A stretch of DNA of 24,106 nt from a virus. The notes under the pieces were generated by a model. It was not told the DNA's origin, ran no database searches, and worked only from the letters and a program-made list of their open reading frames with translations. The stretch lies in the IMG/VR virus record IMGVR_UViG_3300045051_000623, positions 1 through 24,106 of that record; one strand, written 5' to 3'. How positions within the stretch are numbered: the stretch's first letter is position 1; the number at the start of each line of letters is the position of its first letter. Below are positions 11,301 through 23,946 of this stretch, one piece after another. Position numbers and translations under genes: made by a program.

Positions 11301-12209
11301 ATGACCACCTCCTACGGCACCGCCACTGACCATGACGACCTCTTCGAGCGGCTGCGCACGTTTCTGACGACGGGGATCGGCACGGGCGAGAACTGGACGG
11401 AGCTCGACTACAACACCGCCGACCGCTCGGTGCTGTTCGAGGCGCCGGGCCTCTCTGGCACGGAGGAAATCCACGTCGGCCTGCAGCTGTATGAGAGCGT
11501 CGACACCGACACGTTCGGCTTCTATGGCTGGATGTTCCGGGCGTACGACTCGGGGCTGGCGCACACGCTGCAGCCCGGCGCTTCAGCAACGAGATTCCAT
11601 CCGACCTTCGACGCGGCCATCCCGTACTGGTTCTTCGCGAACGCGCAGCGGGTGATCGTCGTGACGAAGATCTCGACCGTCTACACGGCGAGCTACCTCG
11701 GCAAGTTCCTGCAGTACGGCACGCCCGGTGAGTATGGCCAGCCCTATTACGTGGGCATGCCTTACAGCGGCGCGCTGCGCTTCTCGTCCGAGCGCCACGA
11801 CTTCCGCAACTTCTGGGACCCGGGCGACGGCGCGCAGATCCTGCTGCCGAGCGGCTCGTGGTCAACTTGCCGCAACCACGACGAGTCCACCAGCGCCGAG
11901 TCGCCCGCGACGTCGGGCAATTTCATCCACCCCTATCACGATCGGTCAGGAACTTCCGCCAACGAGGTGCGCAGCCGCTGGCGCGAGCTGCGCGACAACG
12001 TCGACGGCAGTTACACACGGTTCCCACTGATGCTCACGGGAAACACGCCCGAAGCGAACATCTATGGCGAACTGGATGGGGCGTACGCGATCAGCGGGTT
12101 CAGCACGGTGAGTGAGGACGACCTGACCATCGGCGGCGACTCGTACCTGATCTTCCAGGACTGCTACCGCACCGCGCGCTGGAACTATGCCGCGCTCCTC
12201 GAGGCCTGA
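11301..12209 (+). CDS. Tail-associated protein, paralogue A
   Basis: A 302-aa protein with no recognised domain, rich in Tyr, Trp and Phe, as many virion surface proteins are. It shares positions with the next gene: YDSGLA followed three residues later by QPG, an I-S-x-x-Y segment leading to L-G-x-x-x-x-Y-G, and a C-terminal L-x-IGGD motif. The two are therefore tandem paralogues of similar length (302 and 301 aa). The place after the tape measure and before the gpL- and gpJ-like genes puts it at the tail tip or on tail decorations. Function is unknown; adhesion or tip assembly are possible roles. Confidence 0.75.
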   Translation: MTTSYGTATDHDDLFERLRTFLTTGIGTGENWTELDYNTADRSVLFEAPGLSGTEEIHVGLQLYESVDTDTFGFYGWMFRAYDSGLAHTLQPGASATRFHPTFDAAIPYWFFANAQRVIVVTKISTVYTASYLGKFLQYGTPGEYGQPYYVGMPYSGALRFSSERHDFRNFWDPGDGAQILLPSGSWSTCRNHDESTSAESPATSGNFIHPYHDRSGTSANEVRSRWRELRDNVDGSYTRFPLMLTGNTPEANIYGELDGAYAISGFSTVSEDDLTIGGDSYLIFQDCYRTARWNYAALLEA

Positions 12210-12212
12210 CGC

Positions 12213-13118
12213 ATGCCATATCAAACCGGTGCGGCCTCGGATCCCGCCGACCTGCTGGCCGATCTCGGCACCTTTGCCGCGGCCAACGGCTGGACCGTCA
12301 GCAGTCCCACCAGCGGCAAAGTGTTCTCGAAGGGATCGGCGTTCTGCGGCGTCGTCGCCGACGCCGACTCACTCGACTCGCGCGGCTGCATTTCGTACGA
12401 CTCCGGGCTGGCGTGGAATGCACAGCCTGGGCACTCCGGCGTTACCCATTCCTGCAATCTGGGGGCGGGGCCGTTCACGGCGTATCACTTCTATGCCGAG
12501 TCGGAGGAGTCCAAGAGCTTCCTGGGCGCGGTGGTGGAGATTTCGGCCGGCGTCTACCGCCACTGGGTGCTGGGCGACCTGATCAAGTACGGCGCCTGGA
12601 CGGGAGGCACCTACAGCGACAGCGTGTTCCATGACACGACCTCGGACGATGCGAATCGCACGACGAGCGCTAATCACCGCTACCTGGCCGACACGATCTA
12701 CGGCGGCACCGCTCGCGGGCAGTTCTACTGCAACGTCGATGGGTTGACCGACAACTGGGTGAAGATCGCCGCCAGCAGCGACATCGCCTCTGCTTCGTCG
12801 TTCGGCACCGGCTGCGTGAGGGGTGACGGCAAATGGATCGGGGCGATCGGGTCTCAGTACCAGAAGTGGAACCTGCGCACGCCGCTCTTCCCGCTCGAGC
12901 TGTTCGTCAACCGCCCGTCGTCACTGCGGTCAATCGTCGGTCGCGTTCCGGCGCTGCGCCACGTGAGCCTGCGCAACTACATGCCCGGCGAGATACTGTC
13001 GATCGGGGGCGATGACTGGCAACTCTGGCCGGTCGTGGCGCGCACGGATACCTCCGGCTCGAGTTCGTCCACCACGCCCAGTTCCGGCTACTACGGCTAC
13101 GCCTACCTGCGCACGTGA
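12213..13118 (+). CDS. Tail-associated protein, paralogue B
   Basis: A 301-aa protein with GAGG ahead of its ATG, three bases after paralogue A. It begins YQTGAASDPADLLADLGTF, comparable to YGTATDHDDLFERLRTF in paralogue A, and shares YDSGLA, the central VEISAGVYRHWVLGDLIKYG region and LSIGGD near the C-terminus. The tail end is Ser/Thr/Tyr-rich (SSSSTTPSSGYYGYAYLRT). Similar lengths and several co-linear matches indicate duplication followed by strong divergence. The next gene starts in its stop (GTGA overlap). It is probably a tail-tip or peripheral tail component; function is not known. Confidence 0.75.
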   Translation: MPYQTGAASDPADLLADLGTFAAANGWTVSSPTSGKVFSKGSAFCGVVADADSLDSRGCISYDSGLAWNAQPGHSGVTHSCNLGAGPFTAYHFYAESEESKSFLGAVVEISAGVYRHWVLGDLIKYGAWTGGTYSDSVFHDTTSDDANRTTSANHRYLADTIYGGTARGQFYCNVDGLTDNWVKIAASSDIASASSFGTGCVRGDGKWIGAIGSQYQKWNLRTPLFPLELFVNRPSSLRSIVGRVPALRHVSLRNYMPGEILSIGGDDWQLWPVVARTDTSGSSSSTTPSSGYYGYAYLRT

Positions 13119-20275: not shown

Positions 20276-20587
20276 ATGGAATTCGAAGCAAACGACGACC
20301 AGCGGCCTCACGACTACAAGCACATGCGCGTCTCGCTCGCCGCCTCGGTGCTGATCAGTGTCGTGGTGGGGGCGTTCAGCGCTGGCATCACGCAGGGCAT
20401 CGGCTCGCAGCGCGTGGCCATTCTCGAGGAACGCACCCGCGCTGCCGAGGCGAAGGTGGATGCGCTGCAGGCGAGCGAGGCGCAGCTGCGCATCCAGACT
20501 GCAGTCACGCAGTCGCAGTACCAGGAGATTCTCCGGAGGCTCGAGCGGATCGACGTGGCGATCGCCGGCTCGGACCGCCAGCCATGA
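20276..20587 (+). CDS. Single-TM coiled-coil protein of the lysis region
   Basis: A 103-aa protein with GGAG six bases before ATG. A charged N-terminus (EANDDQRPHDYKH) is followed by one membrane segment at about residues 20-41 (SLAASVLISVVVGAFSAGI), then a long amphipathic helix (EERTRAAEAKVDALQASEAQ and onward to LRRLERIDVAI), a likely coiled coil. The gene leads the lysis cassette and overlaps the endolysin start (ATGA). It could be an accessory holin, an antiholin or another membrane-anchored lysis factor. It is not a typical Rz, because a separate spanin pair is present downstream. The function is not certain. Confidence 0.65.
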   Translation: MEFEANDDQRPHDYKHMRVSLAASVLISVVVGAFSAGITQGIGSQRVAILEERTRAAEAKVDALQASEAQLRIQTAVTQSQYQEILRRLERIDVAIAGSDRQP

Positions 20588-21075
20588 CCGAGCCGGCCTG
20601 GCTGCCGATTGCTCGCCGCCACGTCGGACTCGCTGAAACCCCGGGCTCGGTCACAACCTCCACGATCCGCCGCTGGCTGGTCGAGCTGCGAGCCTGGTGG
20701 ACAGACGACGAAACGCCGTGGTGCGGCACGTTCTGTGGGGCCGTGCTGCGCGAGGCGGGGCTGCCTATCCCGAAAGCGTGGTATCGCGCGAAGGCTTGGC
20801 TCGACTGGGGCCAACCCCTGCCACGTGACCTGCTCGGCTGCATTGTCGTCTTCGAACGCTCGGGCGGTGGCCACGTTGGATTCGTGGTCGGCCGCAACGC
20901 GCTCGGCCAGCTGCTGGTGCTCGGTGGCAACCAGGGCAACCGTGTGTCGATCGCCGCGTTCAGCACCAACCGTGTCCTCGGCTACCGCTGGCCGGCGGGC
21001 CTTGAATATCTGACCGCCCCTCCGTCCCCTCTGCTCGCCGCCGCCGGCGCGCCCCTCAGCTCCAACGAGGCCTGA
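20584..21075 (+). CDS. Endolysin-like peptidoglycan hydrolase (TIGR02594 type)
   Basis: A 163-aa protein of the Cys/His peptidase or amidase group (NlpC/P60- or CHAP-like). The likely nucleophile is Cys47 in TPWCGTFCGAV, the His is His97 in GGGHVGFVVG, and a third polar residue may be Asn116 in LGGNQGNRVSI. The N-terminus (WLPIARRHVGLAETPG) matches this family. It should cut peptide bonds of peptidoglycan at lysis. No signal peptide or SAR-type membrane segment is present, so export would need a canonical holin, which fits the two-TM gene next to it. The N-terminus also lacks a cell-wall binding module, as usual for phages of Gram-negative hosts. Confidence 0.85.
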   Translation: MTEPAWLPIARRHVGLAETPGSVTTSTIRRWLVELRAWWTDDETPWCGTFCGAVLREAGLPIPKAWYRAKAWLDWGQPLPRDLLGCIVVFERSGGGHVGFVVGRNALGQLLVLGGNQGNRVSIAAFSTNRVLGYRWPAGLEYLTAPPSPLLAAAGAPLSSNEA

Positions 21076-21500: not shown

Positions 21501-21637
21501 GACTGGGCCGCTACTTCGTCCAGGTCGCGCCTTCGGTCAACGGCCGCGATCGCTGGCTGGCCGGGGCTGACAACACGATCTACTGGGCGCGCTCCGCCCC
21601 GTGCTGGCTGTCATGGAGGTCGCGATGCTACCGCTAG
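21497..21637 (+). CDS. Very small ORF, possible lysis-region protein
   Basis: GTG 21497 overlaps the previous stop (GTGA) and opens 46 codons ending at TAG 21635-21637, 13 bases into the Rz-like gene. The product begins VRLGRYFVQVAPSVNGRDRW and ends basic (SWRSRCYR). No motif is recognised. It fills the only gap between the previous ORF and the spanin genes, which supports it being real. Evidence is limited to length, packing and the overlapping start. Confidence 0.4.
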   Translation: MRLGRYFVQVAPSVNGRDRWLAGADNTIYWARSAPCWLSWRSRCYR

Positions 21638-22125
21638 GCCCGCTCGCCCCGTATGCCGCCATGCTCCGCGTCGGGCTGGCCGTCGCCGGCGTTGCCCTGA
21701 TCGCGCTGGCCGGCTGGCGGGTGTCGGTCTGGCACGAGGCCTACGGCGAGCTGCAGGCCGTGCAGGAGCGTCTGGCCGCGGAGGAGAGATGCGAGGAGGG
21801 CTCAAAGTGCCGCGCGCGCGTGGCAGCGGCTCAGGCCGTGCAGGCAACGAAAAACGCGGAGGCGGTGACCCAGTATGAACAGGAAATTGCTCGGCTCAAT
21901 GCTCGCCCTGTCGAGCGTAGGGTTATTCGGGTGTGCCCCGATCCAAGTACGGTGCGTGATGCCGCCCGTGCCGGCCAACCTGCCGGCGCCGAAGCCGGAG
22001 GGGTACTTCGAGGACCGGTTGAATTCGATACTGGCCCCTTACGAGACCTCGTCCGAGAAGCCGACCGACAGTCCGCCGCCTACCGGGCGCTGAGGGAGAG
22101 GGACGAGGCGCTGGCGCGGGATTGA
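21625..22125 (+). CDS. Rz-like inner-membrane spanin subunit
   Basis: ATG 21625 is preferred because GGAGG (21615-21619) lies five bases upstream; other in-frame starts are GTG 21601 and ATG 21613. The 166-aa product has an N-terminal membrane anchor (LRVGLAVAGVALIALAGW), then a long charged helical domain (ELQAVQERLAAEERCEEG and onward) facing the periplasm, and a Gly/Ala/Asp-rich segment with a terminal helix (READRQSAAYRALRERDEAL). This is the layout of i-spanins, which join the outer-membrane partner to fuse the two membranes at the end of lysis. The Rz1-like gene is encoded inside it in another frame. Confidence 0.8.
   Translation: MLPLGPLAPYAAMLRVGLAVAGVALIALAGWRVSVWHEAYGELQAVQERLAAEERCEEGSKCRARVAAAQAVQATKNAEAVTQYEQEIARLNARPVERRVIRVCPDPSTVRDAARAGQPAGAEAGGVLRGPVEFDTGPLRDLVREADRQSAAYRALRERDEALARD
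21875..22093 (+). CDS. Rz1-like outer-membrane spanin lipoprotein (nested)
   Basis: A 72-aa protein wholly inside the Rz-like gene, in the +1 frame relative to it. A lipoprotein signal peptide (MNRKLLGSMLALSSVGLFGC) ends at a lipobox LFGC, so Cys20 should be lipidated after cleavage. The mature part is Pro-rich (PPVPANLPAPKPEG; SPPPTGR), typical of o-spanins. GGAGG lies about 12 bases upstream of ATG. It would anchor to the outer membrane and bind the Rz-like periplasmic domain. The nested layout, Pro-richness and lipobox together make the call strong. Confidence 0.85.
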   Translation: MNRKLLGSMLALSSVGLFGCAPIQVRCVMPPVPANLPAPKPEGYFEDRLNSILAPYETSSEKPTDSPPPTGR

Positions 22126-22172: not shown

Positions 22173-22232
22173 GTCTAAGATTCGCCCGTGAAACCTCCCG
22201 GCCCCGCCGCGGATTCTGGGTCGGCTTCTAAG
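22173..22232 (+). repeat. Left arm-type TTCTAAG sites of attP
   Basis: GTCTAAG at 22173-22179 (one mismatch) and TTCTAAG at 22226-22232 lie on the lysis-gene side of the core. They have the same orientation as the three copies on the other side, as expected for integrase arm-binding sites. Confidence 0.6.
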
Positions 22233-22288
22233 AGTTCGGATTCTGCAATTCCAATGCAGACAAAGGCTTACGACACGCGGCGTATTCC

Positions 22289-22333
22289 TTCGTAATCAGT
22301 AGGTCCGCGGTTCGAATCCGCGAGTCGGCACCA
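22289..22333 (+). other. attP core: 3' fragment of a tRNA-Thr(CGU) gene
   Basis: Reading 5' to 3': anticodon loop TTCGTAA with anticodon CGT (22291-22293), stem TCAGT, variable loop AGGTC, T stem CGCGG, T loop TTCGAAT, T stem CCGCG, acceptor strand AGTCGGC, discriminator A and CCA (22331-22333). The upstream bases (ATTCC) cannot pair with TCAGT beyond one position, and no D arm or GCCGACT acceptor strand is found. The fragment is therefore a 45-bp attachment core, not a functional gene. Integration would rebuild the host tRNA's 3' end. The host gene is probably tRNA-Thr with anticodon CGU; P22 uses a core of similar size in the equivalent gene thrW. Confidence 0.85.
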
Positions 22334-22348
22334 TTTTCAGGCCCCCGC

Positions 22349-22375
22349 TTCTAAGCTTCTAAGGGCCGTTCTAAG
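22349..22375 (+). repeat. Right arm-type TTCTAAG direct repeats of attP
   Basis: Three exact TTCTAAG copies at 22349-22355, 22357-22363 and 22369-22375, all in one orientation, between the tRNA core and the integrase stop codon. With the left-side copies they flank the core, the pattern of tyrosine integrase arm sites. Confidence 0.7.
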
Positions 22376-22377
22376 AA

Positions 22378-23358
22378 TCACCGCAGCGCCGCTACGGTCT
22401 GGTGCCTGACGTACACGGCCAGCATCTGCTGGCCGTGGCCGAGAATGTTGTGGCCGGCGTCGCTGGCCGACTTCCCGCGCAGGTCGTGGAAGTGCCAGCC
22501 GCCCTTCGGCAGCCGCCGCAGGGCCGACTGAATCCCGCTCAGCGTCCACGGCTGGTTGAACTGGTTGACCAGCAGGAACTCGCTGACCGGGCGGGCCCGG
22601 CGGTGCTTCACGGGATCAGCCCCACGGGCCGCCACGGTCGCCTGCCGCTCGAGCGACCGGCGCACGAAGAACCGCAGCGCGTCCGACCACTGCACCAGGC
22701 GCGTCTTGCCCGTGGTCAGCGCGGTCTTGCCTTCCACGATCACGATCCCCTCCGGCGTCAGGCTGGCGCGGGTGAGGGCGCGGAGGTCACCCTGGCGCGC
22801 TCCCGTCAGCAGGCCGATCGCGAGGAAGTCCTGGACGTGCTCAGGCGCGGCCTCGAAGGCCGACAGGTACTCGGCATCGCTCACGTACCGTTTCCGCGGA
22901 CGTTCTTTGTTCCGCTTGATCCCCCGGCAGGGGTTCGAAGTCGCCCATCCGTGGCGCATCGCAAACTCATACGCCCCCGACAGCACCGCCAGCTCGCGAT
23001 TGCCCATCGTCCCCACGCCGTCCTTTTTTCGTTTTTCGGAGTACGTGGCGACGTGCACCGCCGTCAGGTTGCCGATCTGCACCCGTCCGAAGTGGTGCAT
23101 CAGCCTCGCCTCACAGATCCGGCGGTATTCGTTCCGCGTCGTCTCGGTAATCTCGGCCCCGATCAGGTAGCGCGGCAGCAGTTCGCCGATCGTCGTCGGC
23201 CTCTGCTCACTCGGCAGATCGAGCAGCGCCGCCCTCAGCGCCCGCAGACCGTCCGCGACGGGGGTCAGAGCGTGCCACTTTCCGCGCACGACCTTGTAGT
23301 ACCGGCCGCCCTTCACGTACACCGCTTTGGGGATCGTCCAGGGTGAATCCATCGTCAT
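22378..23358 (-). CDS. int: Tyrosine-family site-specific integrase
   Basis: A 326-aa tyrosine recombinase (324 aa if ATG 23352 is used; GGGAAGG just upstream suits that start better). The N-terminal region (AVYVKGGRYYKVVRGKWHAL) is an arm-binding domain. Residues about 55-140 form the core-binding SAM-like domain, and the C-terminal half is catalytic: Arg188 (TGARQGDL), Lys218 (TTGKTR), His291 and Arg294 (HFHDLRGK), His308 (LGHGQQ) and nucleophile Tyr316 (AVYVRH). All expected residues are present, so it should be active. The 3' end abuts the attachment site. It would integrate the phage into a tRNA-Thr gene. It is in a minus-strand operon with a DUF4224-like gene and a GIY-YIG gene. Confidence 0.95.
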   Translation of the reverse strand: MTMDSPWTIPKAVYVKGGRYYKVVRGKWHALTPVADGLRALRAALLDLPSEQRPTTIGELLPRYLIGAEITETTRNEYRRICEARLMHHFGRVQIGNLTAVHVATYSEKRKKDGVGTMGNRELAVLSGAYEFAMRHGWATSNPCRGIKRNKERPRKRYVSDAEYLSAFEAAPEHVQDFLAIGLLTGARQGDLRALTRASLTPEGIVIVEGKTALTTGKTRLVQWSDALRFFVRRSLERQATVAARGADPVKHRRARPVSEFLLVNQFNQPWTLSGIQSALRRLPKGGWHFHDLRGKSASDAGHNILGHGQQMLAVYVRHQTVAALR

Positions 23359-23518
23359 CCTTCCCGTGCATGGCCCTGTTCACGGCCTCGCTGGTCGTCC
23401 AGGGGTTGCCGTCCTTGTCGCGACAATACTTGATGCCTTCGCCCGTCAGCCAGCGCTTCACGGCCGCGCGCTGGGTGTGCCCGCTGATCCGCTGCAGTTT
23501 GGCGAAGGTCAGGATCAC
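23207..23518 (-). CDS. DUF4224-like small protein upstream of integrase, with long overlap
   Basis: A 103-aa frame from GTG 23518, overlapping the GIY-YIG stop by four bases. Residues 1-52 (TFAKLQRISGHTQRAAVKRW, then GIKYCRDKDGNPW) match the small DUF4224 type often found just before phage integrases, with a helix-turn-helix-like look. An excisionase or integration control role is often guessed but not proved. From about residue 54 the frame runs through the integrase start for 152 bases, giving an Arg/Gly-rich tail (REGRPVLQGRARKVARSDPR) with no evident fold. This tail is either a genuine overlap or the result of a lost early stop. Confidence 0.65.
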   Translation of the reverse strand: MILTFAKLQRISGHTQRAAVKRWLTGEGIKYCRDKDGNPWTTSEAVNRAMHGKDDDGFTLDDPQSGVREGRPVLQGRARKVARSDPRRGRSAGAEGGAARSAE

Positions 23519-23946
23519 GGCTTGCGGGTTGCCGGGCGAAAATACCGGACCAGTTCCATTCTGCGGTTGTGCATCGGCCTCAGCCTCGCGATCAAGTCAG
23601 CCTCGACTGTCGCGGTCTCAGCGATGCTCTTGATCGCGATCCAGGTTGCATGCGTCGGGTACAACCGTGGATCGCTGTGCCAGTTAAGAAAGTGGTGGCG
23701 CAGCCTGGCGGCAACGTTCACGGACCGGCCAACATAGAGCAGGCGCGGACCGGACCAGAGCAGATAAACACCTTGGGCAATGGCCGTCGAGTTCAATTCA
23801 TGCCACGTTCCGCGCCCTCGATACTCCTTCGGCGCATCAAGTCGAGGTAGTCCGCGGTAGTAATCCAGAGCTGGCCGCTCAATTCCTCGGCGCTCGTAGG
23901 CGCGACGGGCCAGCAGCTGCACCAGGTTGCGCAGGGCGGGGCTCAC
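23515..23946 (-). CDS. GIY-YIG nuclease-domain protein
   Basis: A 143-aa protein from GTG 23946. The GIY motif is GVYLLW (residues 59-64) and the YIG motif is LLYVGRS (69-75). The likely catalytic Arg is Arg81 in RLRHHF, the metal-binding Glu is Glu115 in TVEADLIARL, and a conserved Asn is Asn127 in LRPMHNRR. A 50-residue N-terminal extension with basic helices precedes the domain. Free-standing GIY-YIG proteins include homing endonucleases and repair- or restriction-like nucleases. The place in an integrase operon, coupled on both sides by four-base overlaps, suggests a conserved phage function rather than a recent intron invasion. The target is unknown. Confidence 0.85.
   Translation of the reverse strand: MSPALRNLVQLLARRAYERRGIERPALDYYRGLPRLDAPKEYRGRGTWHELNSTAIAQGVYLLWSGPRLLYVGRSVNVAARLRHHFLNWHSDPRLYPTHATWIAIKSIAETATVEADLIARLRPMHNRRMELVRYFRPATRKP

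Follow-up and report, generated by a model that had tools for sequence, protein, structure and literature searches.

Gene content and order of the contig

The window, that is the whole stretch of DNA analyzed here, is a linear IMG/VR virus record of 24,106 bases with no end repeats. In order, it encodes a head protease-capsid fusion, tail proteins, a CHAP hydrolase and a weakly matched Rz-like spanin; next come the putative phage attachment site (attP), an integrase gene (int), an excisionase-like gene (xis) and a GIY-YIG gene. As neither a terminase nor a portal was recognized in the window, it is probably a fragment. The original prediction placed structural and lysis genes on one side of the site and the integrase on the other. 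Structural genes on the left and the integrase on the right are clear, but the lysis label is only partly secure: the CHAP protein (20584-21075) is a better fit to a tail lysozyme (phrog_1259, 3.7e-37) than to an endolysin, and the spanin (21601-22125) is a weak match (E = 0.0046). The GIY-YIG endonuclease-like gene (23515-23946), directly upstream of xis and int, has a weak Pfam match and a match to phrog_16880 (9.2e-7).

By capsid, the nearest phages are L004-L011, at 53-59% identity. No relative of the window integrase was detectable in these contigs, which may be fragments, and the integration module therefore appears mosaic relative to the head genes. A capsid match in the metagenome-assembled genome (MAG) G029 was rejected as a prophage capsid since it is confined to the ClpP-like part. 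Two further observations concern the structural genes. The adjacent genes at 11301-12209 and 12213-13118 both belong to the structural family phrog_687 and cover the same profile positions, and are probably a tandem duplication. Upstream of the capsid gene, an ORF of 628 amino acids (1-1887) is open from the first base; its repetitive sequence looks structural and matches no Pfam or PHROG family. Among phages we found a single relative, located in the tail region of Caudoviricetes ctPCi537 (47.5%), and L005 has an ORF of similar size (606 amino acids) between portal and capsid, likewise with no PHROG match.

A tRNA-Thr(CGU) fragment flanked by direct repeats

As originally predicted, a 3' fragment of tRNA-Thr(CGU) ending in CCA is present at 22289-22333. 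This 45-bp fragment is real, but the sequence held in common with bacterial tRNA-Thr(cgt) genes (described below) is 49 bp long, because the first 4 nt past the CCA also match. The common core thus spans 22289-22337 (+ strand), from the anticodon loop through the CCA plus 4 nt of 3' flank, and is identical at 49/49 positions to the genes in contigs L002 and L003. The identity begins in the anticodon loop and breaks off abruptly at both ends, with no adjacent matching base on either side. ARAGORN found no complete tRNA in the window, an Rfam search of the window gave no matches, and there is no second copy of the core within it. The host 5' half is likewise absent from the window with up to 3 mismatches allowed, as had been claimed. 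Anticodon-loop crossovers and 3' fragments are both common: among the islands catalogued by Islander, 3760 carry a 3' fragment, 159 a 5' fragment and 2083 are anticodon-centered (PMC4383910).

The core lies 40 bp from the int stop codon and is flanked by copies of TTCTAAG, which reads CTTAGAA in the sense of int. The repeat counts given previously hold. To the right, exact copies (all - strand) lie nearest the core at 22349-22355, in the middle at 22357-22363, and beside the int stop at 22369-22375; the middle copy is 12 bp from the next. To the left, an inner exact copy lies at 22226-22232 (-) and an outer near copy, CTTAGAC (GTCTAAG on the other strand), at 22173-22179 (-), 53 bp from the inner one. 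Measured from the int stop, the five offsets are 2, 14, 22, 145 and 198 (the last being CTTAGAC), all in one orientation with the core in between. We regard these as putative arm-type integrase sites, three in the P' arm and two in the P arm, one of the five being imperfect.

The clustering of the repeats is far from random expectation. All four exact copies in the 24-kb contig fall within 150 bp around the core (0.37 expected), so the motif is not found at equal frequency elsewhere in the contig. At least four copies were reached in 0/100 shuffles, and simulations based on the local sequence gave no 7-mer with four occurrences in 3000 trials. With one mismatch allowed, the motif matches 19 times contig-wide versus 13.1 expected, which is not clearly enriched, and the near copy at 22173 consequently rests on its position.

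The integrase and Xis-like proteins

The gene int (22378-23358, - strand) reads toward the attP region and encodes a lambda-type tyrosine integrase of 326 amino acids (phrog_1, E = 2.6e-41). Its score against the Pfam integrase family is under the gathering cut-off; the PHROG assignment and the fold are clear. The catalytic residues (R-K-H-R-H-Y) align with those of relatives as K211, H291, R294, H308 and Y316, plus the arginine in TGARQGD. An AlphaFold model (mean pLDDT 82) has a three-stranded sheet and helix followed by core-binding and catalytic domains, and its top match in the PDB by Foldseek is full-length lambda Int (1z1b). In the N-terminal part of the model, strands at residues 13-16, 19-24 and 27-33 precede a helix at 34-46 (block pLDDT 71-85). 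Residues 13-46 are accordingly a predicted arm-binding domain.

Just upstream of int lies the conserved part (residues 2-56) of a DUF4224/phrog_1266 excisionase-like gene, xis (23207-23518, - strand; phrog_1266, E = 5.9e-13; PF13986, E = 1.2e-4), whose 3' end overlaps the int start.

Candidate host loci

We compared an exact 40-bp core pattern with 84,980 species genomes. It occurs in only two contigs, L002 and L003, both from MAGs labelled Gammaproteobacteria or Proteobacteria, and in each the core is part of a complete tRNA-Thr gene (anticodon CGT). As predicted, these genes match to the end of the fragment and diverge upstream at the anticodon loop. Synteny between the two loci extends across the tRNA gene, and their match to the window is confined to 22289-22337; neither flank of the window resembles them beyond these 49 bp. 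Being empty and syntenic, both are candidate attB sites.

Both MAGs belong to one genus, for which nine species were covered. The core was not found in the other seven species with up to 3 mismatches allowed, an absence that is weak evidence given that the MAGs are incomplete. Among 196 genomes drawn from the order, the core is present only in G030, one of the two MAGs. No relative of the window integrase was detectable in either candidate host MAG, and no integrated copy of the window phage was found. The family to which these MAGs belong does include relatives of the window head protein (47% identity in G234, 35-49% in G227) and of the window integrase, several of the latter adjoining tRNA genes. 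From these sequence matches, the genus of the two MAGs is the probable host genus. A search of IMG/VR with the core pattern gave no match.

Repeats beside related integrases

A scan of IMG/VR with the single integrase protein found no relative, and an alignment-based scan found 23. One of these, L120 (IMGVR_UViG_3300038701_000785), was retrieved by its integrase protein only, which is 33% identical to that of the window; the window capsid protein has no match in this contig. L120 carries CTTAGAA five times, all within 185 bp after the int stop (offsets 0, 12, 22, 123 and 176) and nowhere else in its 6.2 kb, where 0.6 copies are expected. The 3+2 layout and the orientation are the same as in the window, with one site at the int stop, a 12-bp step among the near sites, an inner far site in a matching position, and the two P-arm sites 53 bp apart in both. 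Because the two far copies are exact in L120 and have this same spacing, they support the imperfect fifth site of the window. The L120 layout is our strongest evidence that the window repeats are integrase arm sites and fits the earlier suggestion that equally oriented repeats on both sides of the core are shared arm sites; the window integrase probably grips all five.

The core in L120 is different. The attP of L120 (3228-3410) has as its core the 5' half of an apparent tRNA-Arg(CCU) gene, which is the less common orientation. This bears on a reading in which the tRNA fragment of the window comes from the decay of a tRNA gene carried by the phage, or was acquired by chance, and the TTCTAAG repeats have nothing to do with it, being for example regulatory or terminator elements. 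Phages do carry tRNA genes and fragments, and binding of the repeats by the integrase is putative. But the fragment is intact at 49/49 positions and stops exactly at the anticodon loop, only 40 bp separate it from the int stop, and repeats of the same kind recur around a different tRNA core in L120. We consider this explanation extremely improbable.

Short repeats also accompany other integrases of the group. L119 has TTAGAA at its two far sites, whose separation of 42 bp is shorter than that in the window by about one turn of the helix. Three copies of GTAGAG in L090, beside a tRNA-Lys, are spaced by 12 and 8 bp as in the window, and TAGACAG occurs twice in L091 at an interval of 20 bp. The named phages mEp390, ZF40, F10, Fostie and PBR31, whose integrases are distantly related, have their own short repeats after int; in mEp390, an attP is annotated just downstream of int. 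As a separate observation, the integrases of L119 (1-783) and L120 (2277-3227) are shortened before the catalytic tyrosine and lack the usual LGH motif there.

A search of IMG/VR for a triple CTTAGAA pattern returned 31 stretches, and only in the L120 contig does the motif lie beside an integrase of this group. Most of the others are evenly spaced repeats or AT-rich contigs; the motif alone hence does not find attachment sites. One high-GC phage among the stretches (L151:5475-6010) has CTTAGAA three times, plus twice inverted about 500 bp away, with no integrase adjoining the motif.

A model for integration and the state of the DNA

The region brings together a host-identical tRNA 3' core, arm-type repeats on both sides of it and an adjacent integrase gene, and its match to the candidate host loci is limited to the core. 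We therefore conclude with high confidence that it is the complete, unrecombined lambda-type attP of a temperate siphovirus with a heterobivalent integrase and an Xis-like protein, and that the contig is not a simple prophage. Heterobivalent integrases with arm- and core-type sites have been described (PMC2951348).

In the proposed mechanism, the N-terminal domain of Int would bind the five CTTAGAA sites, three between int and the core (P') and two beyond it (P), while the catalytic domain would bind and cut the tRNA-derived core, so that Int may bridge arms to core as in the lambda mechanism. Strand exchange with the host tRNA-Thr(CGU) gene would take place near the anticodon loop. Integration would leave int beside a rebuilt tRNA gene, unchanged because the exact match spans the anticodon loop to past the CCA, and the displaced 3' half at the other end, adjoining the late genes. 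The reverse reaction would be directed by the Xis-like protein, whose gene lies upstream of int.

Integration as a prophage places the P and P' arms at opposite ends. In the window both still flank one core and no host flank is seen, so the sequenced DNA did not come from a simple integrated prophage; on the same grounds we rejected the reading of the site as an ordinary attL or attR. The original proposal of a free or permuted genome is thus supported by the two-sided arm sites, which have late genes to their left and int to their right. Two identical or nearly identical prophages integrated in tandem at one tRNA gene would meet in a junction indistinguishable in sequence from attP, with the same P-core-P' order; tandem islands at tRNA genes are reported by Islander, with 125 in the "two or more" class (PMC4383910). 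However, the candidate host loci match nothing in the window outside the core, and in collections of viral contigs one would expect free or induced phage to outnumber tandem copies. The presence of one arm motif on both sides of the core, in a layout common to L120, argues against a junction of two different elements. We judge the tandem junction to be improbable, and the molecule was more likely virion, circular or replicating phage DNA.

Comparison with known systems

The general picture of phage integration is unchanged by this site. A single metagenomic contig, not a simple prophage, here reveals a temperate phage, the gene that it probably targets and its probable host genus, and provides a predicted set of integrase, attP and attB for a gammaproteobacterial genus represented here by MAGs alone. 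A modest addition is that the arm sites and their spacing are common to a phage whose attP holds a different tRNA. This suggests that arm-site motifs, combined with the integrase, can help to identify attachment sites in uncultured phages. We put forward, with the chances evenly balanced, that an arm-site code (CTTAGAA, 3+2, direct, with far-arm spacing of 53 bp, or 42 bp in a third relative) is conserved in this integrase group while the tRNA core has been swapped, from the 3' half of tRNA-Thr(CGU) to the 5' half of tRNA-Arg(CCU), so that arm recognition and target choice evolve independently. If true, the arm motif could trace integrases that switched targets.

The window attP is an ordinary lambda-type site, comparable to published ones. 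As in lambda, P and P' arm-type sites flank the core and int and xis lie side by side, and the window Int, like lambda Int, has an N-terminal arm-binding domain (here predicted), full-length lambda Int being its best structural match. Lambda does not attach at a tRNA gene, and its arm sites have another motif than those of the window. The gene thrW encodes tRNA-Thr(CGU), the same isoacceptor as the window core. P22 and its relatives integrate into thrW (PMC2629481), and the original comparison with P22 is therefore apt at the level of the target tRNA gene. In mycobacteriophage Pixie, the attP core is 47 bp of a tRNA-Lys gene, and direct arm sites flank it, two to one side and three to the other (PMC3203893), an arrangement like that of the window; Pixie differs in its tRNA-Lys target, its actinobacterial host and one further inverted arm site (PMC3203893).
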